From Methylobacterium sp. FF17 (GTDB lineage Bacteria > Pseudomonadota > Alphaproteobacteria > Rhizobiales > Beijerinckiaceae): DNA of 64,000 bases. The stretch covers positions 372,001 through 436,000 of the forward strand of contig NZ_CP107532.1 of the NCBI RefSeq assembly GCF_025813715.1. Direction: 5' to 3'. Shown here in pieces: positions 50,275-64,000 of the stretch; the stretch's first letter is position 1, and each line of letters opens with the position of its first letter. The notes below the pieces were generated by a model that was not told the origin of the DNA, did not search any database, and saw only the letters and a list, made by a program, of their open reading frames with translations. Position numbers and translations under genes: made by a program.

Positions 50275-50925
50275 CTACAGTGTCTTCCCGTCGTGCCAGA
50301 CGCAGTTCGAGGCCAGGATGCCGAGGTTCACGTCGGATTTCTGGGGCTGCGGCAGGGTCTTGCCGTCCATGGCGAGGTCGATCTTGATCTCGACCTGGCC
50401 CTTCTGCTCGTTCTGGCGACGGGAGAAGTAGCAGTATTGCTGGAAGGGCTGGTCCTCGTTGGCGCGGAAGTTCCAGCCGGTGACGATCTGGCCGTCCATG
50501 TAGGGCACCTGCTTGAACACCGTGAAGGTGGTGTTGACCGGTGCCTTCGAGGCCGGCGCGGCGTCGTTGCCGAGCTGCGCCTTGGTGGGCGTCGGCGCCC
50601 CGCCTGCCTTGGGCAGTGCGCCTTCGAGCTTGAGCACGTTGTCGGTGAGCGTGACCTCACCCTTGGTCTTCAGGGTGACGTCCGACAGGGCCGCCTGCAT
50701 GGCGGCGGCGATCTTCTCGGCGGCCGAGTCGAACTGGTTCATGTAGGCGTAGCCGTAGGAGGCCGCCCCGACGCCCATGCCGGCCAGCAGCAGGAAGGCG
50801 CCGGCCCCGAGGGATCGGAACAGGAAGGCGCGGGCGGCGACGATCCGCGCCTCCGCGCGGAGGCGGCCGTTCACGCTCTGGGCGAGGACGACGTTCTCGG
50901 GCGTGCCGGGCGTGTGGATGCTCAT
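50275..50925 (-). CDS. Unrecognised single-pass membrane protein (partner of the upstream gene)
   Basis: This 216-residue protein has an N-terminal cytoplasmic part, one membrane helix (about residues 38-62, SLGAGAFLLLAGMGVGAASY) and an extracytoplasmic domain of about 150 residues. Two cysteines in that domain (QQYCYFSRR and SNCVWHDG) could form a disulphide. I recognise no family. Its ATG overlaps the TGA of the gene upstream (ATGA), so the two are coupled and probably act together. It is followed on the same strand by moxR. Confidence 0.7.
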   Translation of the reverse strand: MSIHTPGTPENVVLAQSVNGRLRAEARIVAARAFLFRSLGAGAFLLLAGMGVGAASYGYAYMNQFDSAAEKIAAAMQAALSDVTLKTKGEVTLTDNVLKLEGALPKAGGAPTPTKAQLGNDAAPASKAPVNTTFTVFKQVPYMDGQIVTGWNFRANEDQPFQQYCYFSRRQNEQKGQVEIKIDLAMDGKTLPQPQKSDVNLGILASNCVWHDGKTL

Positions 50926-52178
50926 GCGCCGGCTCCCGCGCCGACGGCCTGGGCCGGGGCGCGCCGGTCGATCGGGATCACCGCGCCGCCGGGCGGTGCC
51001 GCCTGCGCCGCGGGCGCGACGCCGGGTGCGACGGGTGCCGCCGCCGGCTCATCGGGTGCGGTGCGGGCCTGGTTCAAGGCCATCTCCGCGCGCAGTGCGC
51101 CGGTGATCGAATCCAGCATGTAGGGGGTCGCCGCCGGGTCGACGGTGGCGCCGAGGTCGTCCTCGTCCATGAAGGTCGAGCGCACCGAGACGGCGCAGAG
51201 CGCCAGGATCGTGGAGGCGAAGGCCGCGCAGAGGGCCGGCACGAACACGAAGATGCGCAGGAAGGCATGGACCTGGGCCTCGCTCACGTCGATCGGATCG
51301 ACGCCGTAGACCATGGCGGTGAAGGAATGCAGCTGCGAGCGGTTGACCGCGTTGCGATAGGTCTGCTCCGCATCGGCGACCTTGCGCTCGGCCGCGCCCC
51401 GGTCGAGCTCACCCCGGGCCTTGCGGGCCTCCTCGAGAAGCTTCGTCACCCCGCCCCGGTCCGTGCCGGCCTTGGCGACGCTGGCGTTCAGGGTAGCGGT
51501 GCGCGGGTCGGTGACGCACTTCATGTTCGAGTAGCGCTGCCCCCGGCTGTTGGTGCCGTAGACGCGCTCGCAGCGCTGCGGCGGCAGGCCGGCGAGCTGG
51601 CTCGCGTTCTCGGCCGCGCGCTTCTCGATCTGGTCGAGTTCGGTGGTGTATTGCGCGACGCGGGCATCCGCGGCGGAGATGCGGTTGTCGATGGTGCCGC
51701 GATCGGCCTGGGCGTCCTTCAGGGCGGTCTTGGCCTTGGCGGCGTCCATGAGGCGGGGATGGAACATCATCTCGCCGAGCTGCGACACCGACTTCGTGGT
51801 CACGCCCGCCGCGAAGATGATGCCGATCACCGCCAGCATGCGGATGACGTAGGAGCGCTGCGTCCGCGCCAGGATGCCGAGCGGCACGCGGCAGAGTTCC
51901 ACCGCCGCGTAGACCAGCGGCGCCAGCAGCATGAAGTAGAACGCCTTCGAATCGCCGTCGCTGTAGACCCCGGCGAACAGCCAGGCGCCCCACAGGGAGG
52001 CGCCGATGACCATGAACTCGACGAGGTAGGCGATGCCGACATAGCCCCACTTGATGCGGTAGCCCTTCTCGACGTCACGCTCGTGGACCCACCGGTCGGT
52101 TTCCCGGCGCCAGTCTCGGGCTTCCCGCTGCACGTCCCGGTTGGGCGGCGTCTTTCGCATGGTGTACTCATGTCTCAT
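50922..52178 (-). CDS. Unrecognised multi-pass membrane protein with a central coiled coil
   Basis: This 418-residue protein has three membrane helices (about residues 45-70, 79-102 and 110-131), a long charged helical region (about 140-285) likely to form a coiled coil, a fourth helix (about 305-331) and a proline- and alanine-rich tail. The middle contains a cysteine pair (PPQRCERVYGTN and NMKCVTDP) that may lie outside the membrane. No known family is evident to me. ATG 52178 and ATG 52160 are both possible starts; neither has a strong ribosome site. It is the first gene of a coupled pair. Confidence 0.7.
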   Translation of the reverse strand: MRHEYTMRKTPPNRDVQREARDWRRETDRWVHERDVEKGYRIKWGYVGIAYLVEFMVIGASLWGAWLFAGVYSDGDSKAFYFMLLAPLVYAAVELCRVPLGILARTQRSYVIRMLAVIGIIFAAGVTTKSVSQLGEMMFHPRLMDAAKAKTALKDAQADRGTIDNRISAADARVAQYTTELDQIEKRAAENASQLAGLPPQRCERVYGTNSRGQRYSNMKCVTDPRTATLNASVAKAGTDRGGVTKLLEEARKARGELDRGAAERKVADAEQTYRNAVNRSQLHSFTAMVYGVDPIDVSEAQVHAFLRIFVFVPALCAAFASTILALCAVSVRSTFMDEDDLGATVDPAATPYMLDSITGALRAEMALNQARTAPDEPAAAPVAPGVAPAAQAAPPGGAVIPIDRRAPAQAVGAGAGA

Positions 52179-56271: not shown

Positions 56272-56724
56272 ATGCAGGACAGTAGACCGGCGGGCGGCTT
56301 CGCACCCCTCATCCCCGAACTCGACGTCCGGGACCTCGGCGCCAGCCTCGAATTCTGGGTTTCCGCCCTCGGCTTCGCCGTGGCCTATGCGCGTCCGGAA
56401 TCGGCCTTCGCCTATCTGGAGCGCGCGGGCGCGCAGGTGATGCTGAATGCGATCAACGGCAACTGGAGCACCGGGCCGCTGGACCCGCCGTTCGGACGCG
56501 GGATCAACCTCCAGATCGAGGTCGCCTCGGTCGATCCCATCCTCGAACGCCTCGCGGCGCGGGCCTGGCCGCTGTTCCGGCCCTGCCACGACGCCTGGTA
56601 TCGCCTCGGAGGGGAGGAGATCGGCTGCCGTCAGTTCCTGGTCCAGGATCCGGACGGCTACCTTCTGCGCTTCAGCCAACCCCTCGGGGCACGACCCCTC
56701 AACCCTGGCGTGCCGGCGTCGTGA
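56272..56724 (+). CDS. VOC-superfamily protein (bleomycin-resistance/glyoxalase-like)
   Basis: This 150-residue protein has the VOC fold: two beta-alpha-beta-beta-beta modules, with PELDVRDLGASLEFWVSALG in the first and FLVQDPDGYLLRFSQ in the second. It resembles BLMA-type bleomycin-binding proteins, although resistance is rarely the real role of such chromosomal genes. ATG 56272 is chosen because GGGAG lies nine bases upstream; ATG 56257 would add five residues. Its last 26 bases overlap the end of the convergent ferredoxin gene. Confidence 0.85.
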   Translation: MQDSRPAGGFAPLIPELDVRDLGASLEFWVSALGFAVAYARPESAFAYLERAGAQVMLNAINGNWSTGPLDPPFGRGINLQIEVASVDPILERLAARAWPLFRPCHDAWYRLGGEEIGCRQFLVQDPDGYLLRFSQPLGARPLNPGVPAS

Positions 56725-57019
56725 CGCTGAGGCCGTCGAGCTCGGGGGTGATGCGGATCTGGCAGCACAGGCGCGAGGTCGCGCGCACGTCGGAGGCGAA
56801 GTCGAGCATGTCCTGTTCCATCGCCTCGGCGGGGCCGACGATCCCGGCCCATTCGGCGTCCACGTAGACGTGGCAGGTCGCGCAGGCGCAGGCACCGCCG
56901 CACTCCGCATCGATGCCCGGCACGTTGTTGCGGATCGCCGCTTCCATCACGGTCGACCCCACGTCGGCCTCCACGGTCCTGGCCGTTCCGGCGTGGTCGA
57001 CGTAGGTGATCTTGGGCAT
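56699..57019 (-). CDS. [2Fe-2S] ferredoxin, adrenodoxin/Isc type
   Basis: This 106-residue ferredoxin has the C-x5-C-x2-C...C pattern of vertebrate-type ferredoxins: C40, C46, C49 and C86, in ECGGACACATCHVYV and LCCQIRI. Extra cysteines at 44 and 85 are also present. Such ferredoxins serve iron-sulphur cluster assembly or cytochromes P450; neither partner is nearby, so the role is open. The C-terminus overlaps the convergent VOC gene by 26 bases. The upstream 205 bases hold no gene I can support. Confidence 0.92.
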   Translation of the reverse strand: MPKITYVDHAGTARTVEADVGSTVMEAAIRNNVPGIDAECGGACACATCHVYVDAEWAGIVGPAEAMEQDMLDFASDVRATSRLCCQIRITPELDGLSVTTPARQG

Positions 57020-57224: not shown

Positions 57225-57578
57225 TCAGGACGCGGGCGACACCACCGCCAGGGTCGCTGCCACCGCCTCCGTGAGCGCCTCTTCGGCACCCTCCCCCGGC
57301 GCGGCGCCGGCCCGCAGCGCGTCCTCGATCGCCGCAGACAGTCGCGCGATCCGCAGCGCCCCGATCCCGAGGGCGGACCCCTTCAGGGTATGGGCGAGGT
57401 CGGCACGCTCCGGGTCGGCCAGGCTCCGGTCCACGATGCCCGGTAGCAGGCGCCGGCACTGCCCGGCGAACAGGTCCAGGAGCTCGCGCGCGAGCGCCGC
57501 GTCGTCGAAGGTCTGTTGCGCCAGGTATGCCCGGTCGAGGAGCGGTGTCGCGTCCGGATCCTGCAAGCCCGTCTCCAT
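57225..57578 (-). CDS. Histidine phosphotransfer (Hpt) domain protein
   Basis: This 117-residue protein is a single Hpt domain with the phosphorylatable histidine H63 in LAHTLKGSALGIGA. Hpt proteins relay phosphate between hybrid sensor kinases and response regulators; none is encoded nearby. The C-terminal 20 residues are alanine- and valine-rich. It is divergent from the giant helical protein gene, sharing an AT-rich 291-base upstream region. If the giant gene is a GPR homologue, a phosphorelay protein beside it may be a functional link, but this is inference. Confidence 0.88.
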   Translation of the reverse strand: METGLQDPDATPLLDRAYLAQQTFDDAALARELLDLFAGQCRRLLPGIVDRSLADPERADLAHTLKGSALGIGALRIARLSAAIEDALRAGAAPGEGAEEALTEAVAATLAVVSPAS

Positions 57579-57869: not shown

Positions 57870-60800
57870 ATGGCCACCGAAAAGAAGCTCAAGGATCCGG
57901 CCGAGGCGGCTCTTTCGGCCATCGAGCAGGCGCTCAACCTCGACGCGTTCGCGCGCGGCGAGGACGAGGCCCGCGTCGAACCGCGCCTTCCGGACGTCGG
58001 TGACGGCGATCCCTTGCGCGATCCCAGTGGCCGTCTCGCCCCGCCCCGCCTCGACCTCGACCAGCCGCTCGCCTCGGACCTGCCGCCGCCGGACCGCAGC
58101 CGCCCCCGCCGGGAGGGTGGTCTGCTGCCGCCCGACCGTTCGATGGTCGCGAACGACGACCGCCAGAACATCGGCATCCTCCAGCAGACCCTCCGGGTCC
58201 GGCCGTCGCGCACGCCGTACCTCATCGCGGCGGGCGCCGGCGCCCTCTGGGTCGCGGGCCTCCTCGCGCTCGCCTGGATCCAGTCCGGCGGCGACCTGCG
58301 CGGCTTCTTCCACGGCCTGACGGCGATCCAGGGGGCGGTGGCCGCCACGGCCCTCGTCGGTCCCGTCGTGCTGTTCGCCATCATGGCGATGCTCGCGGTC
58401 CGCGCGCAGGAAATGCGCCTCGTCGCGCGTGCCGTCGGCGAGGTGGCGATCCGCCTCGCCGAGCCCGAGAACTTCTCCACAGACGCTGTCCTCACCATGT
58501 CGCAGACGGTGCGCCGCGAGGTCGCGGCCGTGGGCGATGGCGTCGAGCGCGCCCTGGCCCGCGCCGGTGAGCTCGAAACCCTGGTGCGCAGCGAGATCGC
58601 CACCCTGGAACGGGCCTATTCCGACAACGAGATCCGCATCCGCTCCCTGGTCGACGAACTGGTCGCCCAGCGCGAATCCATCGTCGCCAATGCCGAGCGC
58701 GTGCGCGGCGCCATCGCGGGTACCCACCAGAGCCTGACGGCGGAACTCGACGGCGCGGCCGAGCGCATCGTCTCGGCGGTCAACGGCGCGGGCGACCGGG
58801 TCACCGGCGCCCTCGACGCGCGCGGCGAGGCCATCACCACGGCGCTGGGGCAGCGCGGCGACACCATCACCGCCGCCCTCGGAGAGGCCGGCGAACGCGT
58901 GGTCGAACTGGTCTCCGGCCGGGGCGACGACCTCGTCCAGCGGCTCACCGCCACCAGCGACGGCGTGCGCGGCAGCCTCGCCGAAGTCGGTACCGCACTC
59001 ACCCAGTCCCTCGAGGCCCGCGCCGACGAGGTCACCCGCGCCTTCGAGCGCACCGGCGGCATCCTCACCACGACGCTGGCCGAGAATGCCGGTCAGGTCG
59101 CCCGCACCCTGGCGCAGACCGGCGCCGAGGTCATCGACGCCCTGAACCGCCAGGGCGGCGAGGTCCGCCAGACCTTTGAGACGTCCGCCCGTGGCCTGGA
59201 GGACGCCTTCCTGGCGCGCGGCACCGAACTGACGCAGCAATTCTCCTCCACGGGCGGCGAGATCACCGCCCGCTTCGCCGAGACCGGCGACGCCCTGCGC
59301 CTGCATTTCGCCGAGACCGGCGCCACCCTCACCCGCGAGATCGCCGCCCGGGGCGATGCCCTGCGCAGCGAACTCGAGACCGCCGGCACCGGCGTCTCCG
59401 AGCTCATCGAGACCCGCGGCCGCGAGGCCCAGGCCGGTCTGGCGCTGGCCGCCAGCGGCATCGTGGAGACTTTCGGCACCCGCGCCGCCGGCGTGCGCGA
59501 CGACCTGATCCGCTCGGTCGAGGACATCGCCAGCGGCATCGACGCGCGCGGCGGCGCCCTGGCGGAGCGCATCGAGACGGTGGCCGCCCGCCTGCACGAC
59601 ACCATCACGGTCCAGGGCACCGACGTGGCGAGCCTCATCGAGGCGCGCGGCCGCGACACCCACGCGACCCTGACCGAGACCACCGGCAGCCTCGTCGACG
59701 CCTTCGGAGCGCGCGCGGATGCGCTGCGCGAAAACCTCGTCGGTTCGGTGGAGGCCATCACCACCGAGCTCGACGCGCGCGGCGGCGTCCTGGCCGAGCG
59801 CATCGCGGCCGTGGCGGCGCGCCTCAACGAGACCCTGGCCGCCGAGGGCGGCAACGTCTCCGAGCGCATCGACGCCAGCGGCCGCGAGGCCCAGGCGGCC
59901 CTAGCTCTGGCCGCGAGCGCCATCGTGGAGACCTTCGGCAACCGGGCCGGCGCGGTGCGCGACGACCTCCTGCGCAGCGTCGAGGGCCTCGCAGCGGCCG
60001 TTGACCAGCATGGCGGCGCGCTCGCCGACCGCATCGAGACCGTTGCGGGTCGCCTGCACGAGACCATCGCGGTCCAGGGCCAGGGACTGGAATCCACCCT
60101 CGGCGCCACCGGGGACCGCGTCGGCGACCTCGTGGCCCTGCGCACCCGCGAGGCCGCCGAAACCCTCGACGGTGCCCTGAGCGCCCTCGGTCAGACCTTC
60201 GAGACCCGGGCCGCCGAGGCCGTCGCGAGCGTCCGCCGCAGCGCGGAGGAGACCACCGTGGTCCTCGGTGCCGGGACCACCGAGGCCGCGCAGGCCCTGC
60301 GCCGCGCCTCCGCCAGCGCCACCGGAGAACTGGAGGCCCGCACCGTCGAGGCCGTTCAGATCTTCGAGCGCCACGTCGCGGCCGCCTCGGGCGACCTCGC
60401 CGCCCGGACCGCTGAAGCGGCCGAACTCCTGCGCCGCGCGGCGGACGGGGCCGGCGGCTCCGTTGGAGACCGCGCCGAGGCCTCCATCGAGGCCCTGCGC
60501 CAGACCCTCGAGGCGGTCAACGCTGAACTGGCCCGTCGCGCCGACGAGGCCGCCGGCACCATCGCCCGCGCCACCGAAGGCCTCGGCGGCGATCTCGCGG
60601 CACGGGTCCGCGACCTCGAGACCACCTTCGGCGACCACGGCCGGACCCTCGGCGACCTCATCGCCGCCCAGGCCCAGGAGGCCCAGGCCCAGCTCGCCAA
60701 TACCGGCCGCGACATCGTCCTCGCCGTCACCGCGCAGGGCGCTCGGGTCAACGACGCCCTCACCCGGAGCGGGGCGACCTTCACCGACACCGCCGCCTCC

Positions 60801-63800
60801 CGCTCCGAGGCGATCGACCGCGTGCTGACCGACCGCCTCGCCACCCTGCAGGAGACCATCGCCCGCGGCGACATCCTCGCCGACCGGATCTCCCGCGACA
60901 CCACCGCCCTCAGCGAGACGGTGTCGGGGCGCCTGGAGGAGATGGACCGCGTCATCACCGTCCAGGGCCGCGCCGTGGCCGAGACCATCGCCGAGCGCAC
61001 CCGTGAGGCGCAGGACCTGGTCGAGACCCAGCTCGGCGCCCTCGAGGAGCGCTCCCTGCGTCGCTCCGCCGAGATCGGCGAGACCTTCGCCACCCTCGTC
61101 GCCCAGATCGACGGACACCTCGGCAGCCGCGCCACGGCCCTCAACGAGGCCCTGATCGTGCGTACCGCCGAGATCGCCCGGACCATGGTCGAGGGCAGCC
61201 GCGACCTCGTCTCGACCCTCGACGCCCGCGCCGACGGCATGGCCCTCGACATCGCCGCGCGCAGCGCCGGCCTCGGCGATGCCCTCGGCGAGCGCGTGGC
61301 CGAGATCGGCCGCCGCCTCGACGAGCAGACCCTCGATCTCACCCGCCGCCTGGACGAGGGTGCCGGGCGCTTCGACGCCGGCGTGATCGGCCGCCTGGAG
61401 GCGATCGGTACCGCGCTGGAAGAGCGCAGCCGTCTCATCGAGGAATCCTTCGGGGCGCAGGCCTTCGAGGCGATCCGCCTGATCGAGAGCCGGACCCGCG
61501 CGGTGGACGAGGATCTCGCCAACCGCACCCGCGAACTCGTGGACATGATCGCCGACCGCACCAGCGGCGCGAACGCGGCCCTCGACGGCCAGACCGTCGC
61601 GATCCGCGAGGCCTTCTCCTCGCGCGCCGACGAACTCGCGCGCCTCATCGACGCCCGCACGGCGGCGATGGCCACCGAACTCGACGAGAAGGGCCGTGCC
61701 GTGTTCGGCGCCCTGGGTGGCCGCATCACCGAACTCGCGCGCCTGTTCGACATCGGCAGCAACTCCCTCGGCGAAGTGCTGGAGCAGCGCAGCGAGTCGA
61801 TCCTGGCGCGCCTGCGCACCATGGTTGCGGAGGCCGAGCGCCAGCTCACCGAGGGCGAGGGCCGCCTCGGCACCACCCTCGACCGCCGCACCTCGGACAT
61901 CAGCTCCCTGCTGGACGAGGGCGTGCGCACGGTGCACCAGCTCCTCGACGACCGCACGGGCGAGATCCGCGCCCTCCTCGACACCCATGCCAGCAGCATG
62001 GGTAGCCACTTCAACGAGCGCATCGCGCCGCTGCACGAGAACCTCGACCAGCGCGGTCGCGCCCTGGTCGACACCATCGCGGCGAGCCTCGGCAGTGCCA
62101 CGGAAGCCGTCGAGGCGCGCACCCGCGCCCTGGCGAGCCTCTTCGACGAGCGCATCGACCACCTCGACGAGGTCGTGGAACGGCGCGGCGGCAGCCTCGC
62201 CGATGCGGTGGAGGCCCGGACCCGGGCCCTGGCCGAGACCTTCGACCAGCGCCTCGGCGCCCTGGACGAGGTCGTGGGCCAGCGCGGCGCCGCCCTCGTC
62301 GGGCGGGTCGAGGACCGCACCCGCGACCTGACCACCACCTTCGACCGGCAGATCGGCGTGCTCGACACGCTGGTGGACCAGCGCGGCGACCGTCTCGCCG
62401 AGAGCGTCGGCCAGCAGGCCCAGTCCCTGGTGGCGCAGCTCGACCAGCGGATCGGCACCATCGAGGAGATCGTGGAACGTCGCAGCGACGCGATGGCCGA
62501 GGCGGTGGACTCTCGCACCCGGGCGCTCGCCAGCCTGTTCGACCACCGCATCGGCCTCCTCGGCCAGCTCGTGGACGGCCGCGGCGCGCAGCTCACCGAG
62601 AGCCTCGACAGCCGCGCCGAGACCCTGGCCACCCTGTTCGACGACCGCATCGGTGCCCTCGAAGGCATCGTGGAGGGCCGCGGCACGCATCTCGCCCAGG
62701 CGCTCGATACCCGCGCCCAGGGCCTGCGCGCCCTGTTCGACGAGGTCCTGGCGGCCCTCGACGGCCTGGTCGACCGCCGCGCCGACAGCCTGACCGACCG
62801 GGTCGATGCCCGCACGCAGCGACTCATCACCCTGTTCGACGAGCGGATCGGCGCTCTCGACCAGCTCGTGGATCACCGCACCGCCACCCTGACCGACGAG
62901 GTCGATGCCCGCGCCCAGGCCCTGGTCGCCCTCGTCGACGGCCGTGTCGGTGCCCTGGACCGGATGGTAGACGACCGCGCCGGTGGCCTGCGGACCCAGG
63001 CCGAGGCCGTCAGCCAGGCCCTCGTCGCGCTGTTCGAGGAGCGCCTGCGCAGCCTCGACGGCCTCGTGGCGAACCGCTCCGAGACCCTGGCCGCCCAGGC
63101 CGAGGACCGCACCCGGACTCTCGTGACGATCTTCGAGGAGAGCCTGCGCGCCCTCGAGGCCCTGGTGGACGGCCGGGCCGGCACCCTCGCGGACCGCGTC
63201 GAGGCGCGCACCCAGTCCCTCGTCGCCGCTGTCGACGAGCGGATCCAGGGCCTCGACGCGGCCGTGGACGGCCGGGCCGACGCCCTCGCGGCCCAGGCCG
63301 CGGAGCGCACCCGCGCCCTGGTGGCGATCTTCGACGAGCGCCTGTCCGCCCTCGAGGCGCTGGTGGAAGGCCGCGCCGGCACCCTCGCCGACCGGGTCGA
63401 CGAGCGCACGCGCTCCCTCGTCTCGGTGTTCGACGACCGCCTGCGCGCCCTGGACGACGCCGTGGACAACCGCTCGGGCGCCCTCGCGGCCCAGACCGAG
63501 ACCCAGGTCCATGCGTTGGCGGGCTTCTTCGACGAGCGCCTCGGCAACCTCGAGCGCCTCGTGGACGGCCGGGTCGACACCCTCGCCGAACGCGTCGAGG
63601 CGCGCACCCAGGGGCTGGTCACCGTCTTCGACGCGCGTCTGAAGGCCCTGGACGAGACCGTCGATCACCGCGCGAGCGCGCTCGCCGAGCAGACCGAGAC
63701 CCGGGGCCGTGCCCTCGCGACGATCTTCGACGAGCGCCTGTCCGCCCTCGACAGCGTCGTGGATGCCCGTGCGGCGGCCTTCGCCCGGACGATCGAGGCC

Positions 63801-64000
63801 CAGGGCACCGCCCTCGCCGAGAGCGTGGACGGCCGCGCGGCCGCCTTCACCAACCGGATCGACAACCGGATGAAGGTGTTCGCGACGCTCGTGGCCTCGC
63901 GCGGCGACGCCCTCGCCTCCGCCTTCGATGACCGCCAGGACGCCTATGCGGCCCTGGTCGACGAGCGCACCGCCGCCATGCTGTCGGCCTTCGACGAGCG
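57870..64000 (+). CDS. Giant membrane-anchored hendecad-repeat protein, growth-pole-ring (GPR/RgsE)-like; 3' end outside the window
   Basis: The frame is open from ATG 57870 to the window edge, giving 2043 complete codons with no stop. Residues 1-115 are cytoplasmic and proline-rich, two membrane helices follow (about 115-136 and 156-180), then MRLVARAVGEVAIRLAEPE and over 1800 residues of alpha-helix built of 11-residue repeats, typically hydrophobic-x-x-R-x-x-x-L. The hendecad pattern is that of apolipoprotein-like helices. The size, N-terminal anchor and apolipoprotein-like repeats match GPR of Agrobacterium (about 2100 residues) and RgsE of Sinorhizobium, which form a ring at the growing pole. 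That identity is inference, since sequence is low in complexity. GAGG precedes the ATG. Confidence 0.85.
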   Translation, partial: MATEKKLKDPAEAALSAIEQALNLDAFARGEDEARVEPRLPDVGDGDPLRDPSGRLAPPRLDLDQPLASDLPPPDRSRPRREGGLLPPDRSMVANDDRQNIGILQQTLRVRPSRTPYLIAAGAGALWVAGLLALAWIQSGGDLRGFFHGLTAIQGAVAATALVGPVVLFAIMAMLAVRAQEMRLVARAVGEVAIRLAEPENFSTDAVLTMSQTVRREVAAVGDGVERALARAGELETLVRSEIATLERAYSDNEIRIRSLVDELVAQRESIVANAERVRGAIAGTHQSLTAELDGAAERIVSAVNGAGDRVTGALDARGEAITTALGQRGDTITAALGEAGERVVELVSGRGDDLVQRLTATSDGVRGSLAEVGTALTQSLEARADEVTRAFERTGGILTTTLAENAGQVARTLAQTGAEVIDALNRQGGEVRQTFETSARGLEDAFLARGTELTQQFSSTGGEITARFAETGDALRLHFAETGATLTREIAARGDALRSELETAGTGVSELIETRGREAQAGLALAASGIVETFGTRAAGVRDDLIRSVEDIASGIDARGGALAERIETVAARLHDTITVQGTDVASLIEARGRDTHATLTETTGSLVDAFGARADALRENLVGSVEAITTELDARGGVLAERIAAVAARLNETLAAEGGNVSERIDASGREAQAALALAASAIVETFGNRAGAVRDDLLRSVEGLAAAVDQHGGALADRIETVAGRLHETIAVQGQGLESTLGATGDRVGDLVALRTREAAETLDGALSALGQTFETRAAEAVASVRRSAEETTVVLGAGTTEAAQALRRASASATGELEARTVEAVQIFERHVAAASGDLAARTAEAAELLRRAADGAGGSVGDRAEASIEALRQTLEAVNAELARRADEAAGTIARATEGLGGDLAARVRDLETTFGDHGRTLGDLIAAQAQEAQAQLANTGRDIVLAVTAQGARVNDALTRSGATFTDTAASRSEAIDRVLTDRLATLQETIARGDILADRISRDTTALSETVSGRLEEMDRVITVQGRAVAETIAERTREAQDLVETQLGALEERSLRRSAEIGETFATLVAQIDGHLGSRATALNEALIVRTAEIARTMVEGSRDLVSTLDARADGMALDIAARSAGLGDALGERVAEIGRRLDEQTLDLTRRLDEGAGRFDAGVIGRLEAIGTALEERSRLIEESFGAQAFEAIRLIESRTRAVDEDLANRTRELVDMIADRTSGANAALDGQTVAIREAFSSRADELARLIDARTAAMATELDEKGRAVFGALGGRITELARLFDIGSNSLGEVLEQRSESILARLRTMVAEAERQLTEGEGRLGTTLDRRTSDISSLLDEGVRTVHQLLDDRTGEIRALLDTHASSMGSHFNERIAPLHENLDQRGRALVDTIAASLGSATEAVEARTRALASLFDERIDHLDEVVERRGGSLADAVEARTRALAETFDQRLGALDEVVGQRGAALVGRVEDRTRDLTTTFDRQIGVLDTLVDQRGDRLAESVGQQAQSLVAQLDQRIGTIEEIVERRSDAMAEAVDSRTRALASLFDHRIGLLGQLVDGRGAQLTESLDSRAETLATLFDDRIGALEGIVEGRGTHLAQALDTRAQGLRALFDEVLAALDGLVDRRADSLTDRVDARTQRLITLFDERIGALDQLVDHRTATLTDEVDARAQALVALVDGRVGALDRMVDDRAGGLRTQAEAVSQALVALFEERLRSLDGLVANRSETLAAQAEDRTRTLVTIFEESLRALEALVDGRAGTLADRVEARTQSLVAAVDERIQGLDAAVDGRADALAAQAAERTRALVAIFDERLSALEALVEGRAGTLADRVDERTRSLVSVFDDRLRALDDAVDNRSGALAAQTETQVHALAGFFDERLGNLERLVDGRVDTLAERVEARTQGLVTVFDARLKALDETVDHRASALAEQTETRGRALATIFDERLSALDSVVDARAAAFARTIEAQGTALAESVDGRAAAFTNRIDNRMKVFATLVASRGDALASAFDDRQDAYAALVDERTAAMLSAFDE
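59406..60098 (+). repeat. Three tandem 231-base (77-residue, seven-hendecad) repeats
   Basis: Within the giant gene three consecutive blocks of seven hendecads line up: 59406-59636, 59637-59867 and 59868-60098. Each begins with an IE/DxRG unit (IETRG, IEARG, IDASG), then LALAA/LTETT, F-G-x-R-A units (FGTRA, FGARA, FGNRA), a L-x-x-SVE unit, a DARGG-type unit, and a unit ending RLHDT, RLNET or RLHET. The blocks have equal length with no insertions. Confidence 0.8.
62175..63857 (+). repeat. Seventeen tandem 99-base (33-residue, three-hendecad) repeats
   Basis: Starting at 62175 every 99 bases begins a new unit with V (codons gtg, gtc or gta) at 62175, 62274, 62373 and on to 63759. The unit pattern is VDxRxxxLAxx-VExRTxxLVxx-FDERLxALDxL. 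No unit is longer or shorter, and the pattern continues less regularly to the window edge. Confidence 0.85.

Follow-up and report, generated by a model that had tools for sequence, protein, structure and literature searches.

A giant membrane-anchored hendecad protein of a Methylobacterium is very probably a member of the growth pole ring (GPR/RgsE) family

To which family does the giant repeat protein at the end of this stretch of Methylobacterium sp. FF17 DNA belong, and what might it build? The window, by which we mean the whole stretch of 64,000 nucleotides (nt) analysed, corresponds to G000:C1:372001-436000 of a 5.99-Mb genome. The gene begins with an ATG at 57870 on the + strand, and its frame stays open to the end of the window, giving 2043 codons inside it. 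The first-pass annotation had described a single open frame of at least 2043 codons; the start codon and the continuity of the frame to the window end were verified, and finishing the gene past base 64000 gave 2760 codons with an end at C1:438152. The full coding sequence is thus G000:C1:429870-438152, encoding 2760 amino acids (aa), with its stop outside the window. Judged from its sequence, the product is very probably the growth pole ring (GPR/RgsE-family) protein of this Methylobacterium. The family is a known one, here wider and more regular than described.

The overall layout of the protein consists of two predicted membrane helices, about 180 hendecads (11-residue units), a less regular helical stretch, a Pro/Ala-rich linker (about residues 2530-2635) and a conserved C-terminal domain (residues 2649-2758, G000:C1:437814-438143), the last two lying beyond base 64000. 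The two N-terminal membrane helices claimed earlier are predicted by hydropathy at residues 119-137 and 157-175, positions that were renumbered by -45 from the stop-to-stop frame. The parts of the gene inside the window are as follows.

57870..63998, + strand: probable GPR/RgsE-family gene, first 2043 of 2760 codons; the start agrees with the conserved N-terminus of relatives
58224..58394, + strand: two predicted transmembrane helices (residues 119-137, 157-175), by hydropathy scan
58395..58646, + strand: conserved juxtamembrane segment (residues 176-259), by consensus of relatives
58647..60887, + strand: hendecad block 1 (residues 260-1006), final unit of 10 residues, with three DNA copies spaced 231 nt (77 residues), by periodicity and unit layout
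60888..63998, + strand: hendecad block 2 (residues 1007 to about 2215, past the window end), with a 33-residue (99-nt) superrepeat, by periodicity and unit layout

Two other candidates were discarded. The overlapping 1119-aa frame L004:8896-12255 was ruled out as a frameshifted continuation of the gene, as it runs into the next gene, which encodes an MFS protein; Zorya ZorA was ruled out by a score of 25.8 bits against an NCBIfam cut-off of 700 (first 2043 residues).

We assign the protein to the GPR/RgsE family because of its architecture, a shared domain and its copy number, with Atu1348 and SMc00190 known here from published descriptions rather than from alignment. According to excerpts of the published text, from which all papers are cited here, Agrobacterium GPR (Atu1348) has 2115 aa, comprising a pair of membrane helices near the N-terminus, a PF01442-type portion of about 1,588 aa and a proline-rich region at 1890-2000, which ends about 115 residues before the C-terminus (PMC8262873). 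The Methylobacterium protein shares with it the two N-terminal membrane helices, the long PF01442-type helix, the Pro-rich stretch and, by published coordinates, a C-terminal segment of the same size and place. Unlike GPR, it is longer (2760 aa) and carries an exact 11-residue lattice, whereas GPR, compared by description, has apolipoprotein-like segments and 21-residue coiled coils (PMC8262873). RgsE of Sinorhizobium meliloti (SMc00190) is a 2089-aa homologue, a large membrane-anchored cytoplasmic protein of an order-wide family (PMC7327166), and on the same descriptive comparison the protein studied here is likewise large, membrane-anchored and part of an order-wide family. GPR and RgsE are seen at the growing or new pole (PMC8262873, PMC7327166), Brucella RgsE sits at the new pole (PMC9938171), and loss or overexpression in Agrobacterium and Sinorhizobium upsets growth and shape (PMC8262873, PMC7327166). 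The open-literature papers on GPR/RgsE make no mention of hendecad, 11-residue or 11-mer repeats, or of mlaE; hendecads and polar growth come up together in one paper, which concerns Gram-positive proteins.

The shared part is the C-terminal domain of about 110 residues, which is 44-67% identical to 11 other rows of our alignment and has 22 invariant columns over the 12 rows. It ends in a near-invariant GKVYTMLAHA in the Hyphomicrobiales rows (the relative L010:10001-10384 is among the copies), and related domain ends were found elsewhere in Alphaproteobacteria. The last 320 residues matched no Pfam model up to an expectation value (E) of 0.1. AlphaFold2, run on the M. goesingense copy of the domain, returned six helices with a mean predicted local distance difference test score (pLDDT) of 71 and a predicted template modelling score (pTM) of 0.59; among solved structures, no convincing relative of the domain was found by sequence or fold. 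When genome contigs were scanned with the domain, the nearest copies among the best 80 of 593 confirmed places came from Methylobacterium at 92-95% identity (Methylobacterium sp. J-078, 95%; M. goesingense, 94%), followed by other Methylobacterium, Methylorubrum, Microvirga, Chelatococcus and Bosea. Protein searches with the domain gave 30 and 488 proteins (120 of the latter listed), and the named carriers among the matches listed include Bartonella, Liberibacter crescens, Candidatus Tokpelaia, Pseudochrobactrum, Nitratireductor and Devosia. Matches to unrelated coiled-coil proteins only, which the first-pass annotation had named as the outcome that would speak against its reading, were not what we observed: the C-terminal domain is common to the Bartonella, Liberibacter crescens, Devosia and Pseudochrobactrum proteins.

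The genome itself fits a polar-growth setting. The MreB equivalog TIGR00904 is unmatched in it at E 1e-60. The broad MreB Pfam model PF06723 finds three places above its low cut-off (53, 51 and 28 bits), which we rejected as MreB; they are an HSP70 (936 bits to PF00012), FtsA and a second HSP70-type protein, and the model is unspecific, matching also in 12/14 control genomes. The sole RodA-like frame scores 232.6 bits, under the cut-off of 336.7, and, lying 7 kb from the FtsA gene, is probably FtsW; MreC also stays below its cut-off. The lack of an MreB equivalog, with RodA and MreC below cut-off, is consistent with a polar grower. The C-terminal domain has one match in this genome. Across the family Beijerinckiaceae it is found in 238/248 genomes (two matches in 3 of them) and TIGR00904 in 0/248. 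Architecture, shared domain, copy number, gene order and the missing MreB equivalog together support the earlier reading of the gene as the GPR/RgsE counterpart.

The most distinctive part of the protein is its repeat lattice. Between 58746 and 60857, the first-pass annotation had counted 64 gapless 11-residue units with L, V, I or F at position 1 in 63 of them, and our recount returned exactly the same figures. In the same units, position 8 is a large hydrophobic residue in 49/64 and position 5 is Gly or Ala in 47/64. The lattice extends beyond that stretch, forming two blocks of period 11/3 with one 10-residue unit between them. Block 1 has 69 units starting at residue 249, of which 67 carry L/V/I/F at position 1; after the lone 10-residue unit (residues 997-1006) the register is offset by one. 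The 112 units of block 2 start at residue 1007 and carry a large hydrophobic residue at position 1 (104 units) and position 8 (105 units), the block's regularity fading past about residue 2215. Measured block by block, the periods are 3.666 and 3.667, respectively. At 11/3, residues 196-2490 give a spectral power of 19.8, whereas 500 shuffles (periods 11, 11/3 and 5.5) reach 1.38 at most. In a comparison of 81 members, this protein has the second highest spectral power.

The hendecads have a hydrophobic stripe at positions 1 and 8, Arg enriched at 4, Asp/Glu at 2, 3 and 10, mostly Gly/Ala or Thr/Ala at 5, and few Lys. There are 3 prolines in residues 200-2490, and throughout residues 261-2215 Cys and Trp are absent, the charges there being 333 acidic and 227 basic, with 3 Lys. 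The PF01442 profile (apolipoprotein A1/A4/E) matches 15 stretches at 5.7e-85 and 284 bits, far above the cut-off of 90. The protein shares with the PF01442 apolipoproteins the 11/22-residue periodicity of an amphipathic helix; it differs from them in its predicted membrane hairpin, its C-terminal domain, the small residues at position 5 and a nonpolar stripe that looks narrow. At the DNA level there are superrepeats, with copies spaced by 231 nt (77 residues) in block 1 and, for the most part, by 99 nt (33 residues) in block 2. Unit-to-unit identity in block 1 is low, at 17% for lag 11.

Changes in length among relatives largely follow the same unit in the closest comparisons. Alignment with five close orthologues showed that 15/15 gaps in residues 260-2215 are multiples of 11 (22, 33, 66, 77 and 198), these core gaps being non-independent, with the 22-residue gap present in all five alignments. 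A further 14 close pairs have 32 core gaps, of which 23 are divisible by 11 (binomial p 1e-17 for a chance of 1 in 11). Nine gaps at residues 2216-2461 in the five close orthologues, outside the hendecad core, are not multiples of 11, nor are many gaps in the more distant orthologues L015-L017; over all eight alignments, 34/79 gaps in residues 260-2480 are. The gap pattern shows modular growth and is compatible with selection on register, the latter not proven by it, because repeat exchange alone could yield multiples of 11.

How far the family reaches was followed in two samples. In the order sample of 219 genomes, the domain is present in 209 and MreB in 25, and 24 of these 25 MreB-bearing genomes have both. 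The class sample comprises 289 genomes, 4 from the protein's own family and 285 from outside its order; the domain occurs in 102/289 and, outside the order, in 98/285, where 5/98 matches are weak (E 1e-4 to 5e-9) and 93 remain without these. Outside the order, MreB is found in 91/98 domain carriers and in 170/187 non-carriers (Fisher p 0.66), so that the domain has no association there with the absence of MreB. Individual members were then read in three sets: 25 outside the order, hand-picked from the 91 with MreB (two of them, G057 and G101, have weak domain matches); 34 MreB-less members of the order, hand-picked from 185; and 21 of the 24 MreB-bearing members of the order, the three others being incomplete. 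At least two N-terminal membrane helices were found by hydropathy scan in 22/25, 32/34 and 20/21 of these, respectively. In a single comparison of residues 94-271 with the MreB-bearing relative G009 (called Parvibaculum-like after similar proteins of the same length), 51/184 columns are identical (E 1e-12).

In published work, distant RgsE homologues were reported in two other orders, four Rhizobiales species were found with MreB and without Rgs homologues, and mutual exclusion was suggested; the RgsE search was restricted to proteins within 50% of 2089 residues (PMC7327166). For the family defined by the domain, mutual exclusion of MreB and GPR does not hold in these samples. Five members outside the order, from the MreB-bearing genomes G281, G263, G037, G106 and G101 (the G101 match being weak), are 2000-2491 residues long, with helix periods of 3.567-3.625. 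Given such long members beside MreB, a protein of this size is not in itself a sign of polar growth.

To compare the helices across the family, we searched the helical core of 81 members (40 shuffles each) and 73 named relatives for the best-fitting period in the range 3.40-3.80, 73/80 named loci having yielded a long frame for this table. Outside the order, the period is below 3.595 (about 25/7) in 21/25 members and at least 3.65 in 0/25, and five members (L127, L129, L135, L136 and L197) show a 25-residue autocorrelation with harmonics at 50 and 75. Within the order, a period of at least 3.65 (about 11/3) is found in 24/34 MreB-less and 6/21 MreB-bearing members. Methylobacterium and Bosea members fall at 3.656-3.666, Liberibacter crescens at 3.662, and Bartonella and a Rhizobiaceae bacterium at 3.641-3.643. 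Placed on the tree, the period classes need 11 changes against 38.5 in shuffles; the helix period follows clade. A coupling of period to MreB loss is not demonstrable with 4 independent pairs, and the class is partly mixed along the chain, the two halves agreeing in 38/50 long members. A relaxed alpha helix has about 3.6-3.65 residues per turn; 25/7 (3.571) and 11/3 (3.667) flank this value, and the handedness of the supercoil should therefore differ between the two classes.

The neighbourhood of the gene was compared among relatives. Upstream, inside the window, lie two genes on the opposite strand.

57225..57578, - strand: HPt-domain protein (PF01627, 3.2e-8); adjoins the gene in most Methylobacterium loci covering that stretch
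56699..57019, - strand: ferredoxin-like protein, conserved by tblastn and named from reading the sequence

The ferredoxin-like gene is kept in 65/66 named loci with at least 9 kb upstream and in 14/15 genomes of other families of the order. Downstream follow genes for a DUF1489 protein, a CheZ-like protein and an MFS transporter, and then a lipid transporter operon (L004:12316-16166, outside the window) encoding MlaE with a STAS domain, an MlaF-like ATPase (named from sequence and place), MlaD/MCE and an ABC_trans_aux lipoprotein. Of the 74 named loci that extend at least 6.5 kb downstream, 66 have the MlaE-MlaF-MlaD set close to the gene, running in the gene's direction in 28 and against it in 38. 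An MCE/Mla-type operon also lies nearby in 11/15 genomes from other families of the order and 2/5 MreB-bearing genomes outside it; the ferredoxin-like gene was not found near the gene in those five. An MreB-bearing Parvibaculum strain apparently also has the operon adjoining the domain. Between Methylobacterium and Microvirga/Bosea, the operon stays beside the gene despite inversion of the block. The link to the lipid transporter is suggestive only, because the ferredoxin-like gene is equally conserved within the order. We also observed that the CheZ-like protein (L004:9769-10881, - strand) reaches 21.3 bits, under the Pfam cut-off of 30.7, that it and the HPt protein flank the gene in Methylobacterium, and that CheZ-like matches lie near the gene in many other named loci. 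Elsewhere in the window, a 418-aa frame at 50922-52178 (- strand) has hydrophobic stretches by eye and no Pfam match.

From these features we propose the following mechanism. The membrane hairpin would anchor the protein in the inner membrane, leaving the remainder in the cytoplasm, and parallel chains would zip together along a narrow stripe formed by positions 1, 5 (frequently Gly/Ala) and 8. The product may be a rod that is almost straight, with a slight right-handed twist, and that measures at most about 290 nm at full extension (1,955 residues x 0.15 nm), comparable to the published GPR ring of 200 nm. Several such rods could assemble as a ring or basket that serves as the growth scaffold at the new pole, where the C-terminal domain, on its flexible linker, would dock or recruit wall- and membrane-building machinery. 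In this cell without MreB machinery, growth might thereby be restricted to the new pole.

Some points weigh against this picture. With many members in MreB-bearing genomes, belonging to the family neither diagnoses nor by itself proves polar growth. In the excerpts describing Agrobacterium GPR, deletion of the last 221 or 332 residues strongly blocked complementation; the protein lacking 332 was more functional than that lacking 221, and paired polar foci formed without the last 332 residues, so that the C-terminal region is dispensable for assembly (PMC8262873). No experiment on the Methylobacterium protein was found in the open literature.

The main rival is apolipoprotein-like lipid binding, in which the 11-mers act like apolipoprotein or synuclein helices, lying on the membrane and binding or shaping the lipid of the growth pole. 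We consider it rather unlikely. The PF01442 score (5.7e-85), the adjacency of the MCE/Mla-type operon (66/74, 11/15 and 2/5 as above) and the lipid role suggested by the GPR authors (PMC8262873) all favour it, but the hydrophobic stripe looks narrow, at positions 1 and 8 of 11 with mostly Gly/Ala or Thr/Ala at 5, and residues 261-2215 are more acidic than basic (333 vs 227), with 3 Lys and no Trp. The gene order is also unspecific, the ferredoxin-like neighbour being likewise conserved (65/66). A shade less probable still is a general organiser of envelope or polarity, older than polar growth, whose main job would be, for example, the organisation of lipid transport or the marking of the new pole. 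In its favour, MreB-bearing genomes share the domain, most of their members that were read have the two helices and the layout as well, and the domain is unlinked to MreB absence outside the order (91/7 vs 170/17, Fisher p 0.66). However, in the excerpts on three Hyphomicrobiales the protein appears only at the growing or new pole (PMC8262873, PMC7327166, PMC9938171), and Agrobacterium and Sinorhizobium cells that lose or overexpress it are disturbed in growth and shape (PMC8262873, PMC7327166).

That replication slippage or high-GC composition gave rise to the repeats incidentally, with no structural meaning, we regard as highly improbable. The DNA copies at 99-nt and 231-nt spacing do mean that copy number can shift by repeat exchange, which could by itself give multiple-of-11 gaps, but the periodicity is far above that of shuffles, block 1 is regular despite its 17% unit identity at lag 11, the same register period recurs across many species, and among close orthologues the register is retained rather than lost.

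TipN, the new-pole marker of Caulobacter, is an 882-aa coiled-coil membrane protein whose overexpression gives ectopic poles. HfaB exceeded its cut-off in 5/48 domain-bearing genomes and is not diagnostic of Caulobacter. TipN is called analogous to GPR in excerpts of a 2026 paper (PMC13170164), and the excerpted TipN text of PMC10127582 holds nothing on homology to GPR. Returning to the reading of the protein as a GPR/RgsE-family rod, we tentatively suggest, as a wider view that is slightly less likely than not, that GPR is not an invention of polar growers. There may be one alphaproteobacterial family of membrane-anchored rods, possibly including TipN, which normally coexists with MreB and, in several lineages, lies beside a lipid transporter operon; in Hyphomicrobiales it would have been lengthened and reset from a 25-residue unit (3.57, slightly left-handed) to hendecads (3.667, slightly right-handed).

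GPR is a proposed scaffold for directing wall growth to a single pole in rod-shaped bacteria that have no MreB. The exact hendecad lattice provides a physical model, with rod length, handedness and register, that is testable with short fragments, and the conserved C-terminal domain, unmatched in the Pfam set searched, is a defined bait. Finally, the presence of the same family in MreB-bearing relatives contradicts the published suggestion of exclusion and raises the question of what role it had before polar growth.

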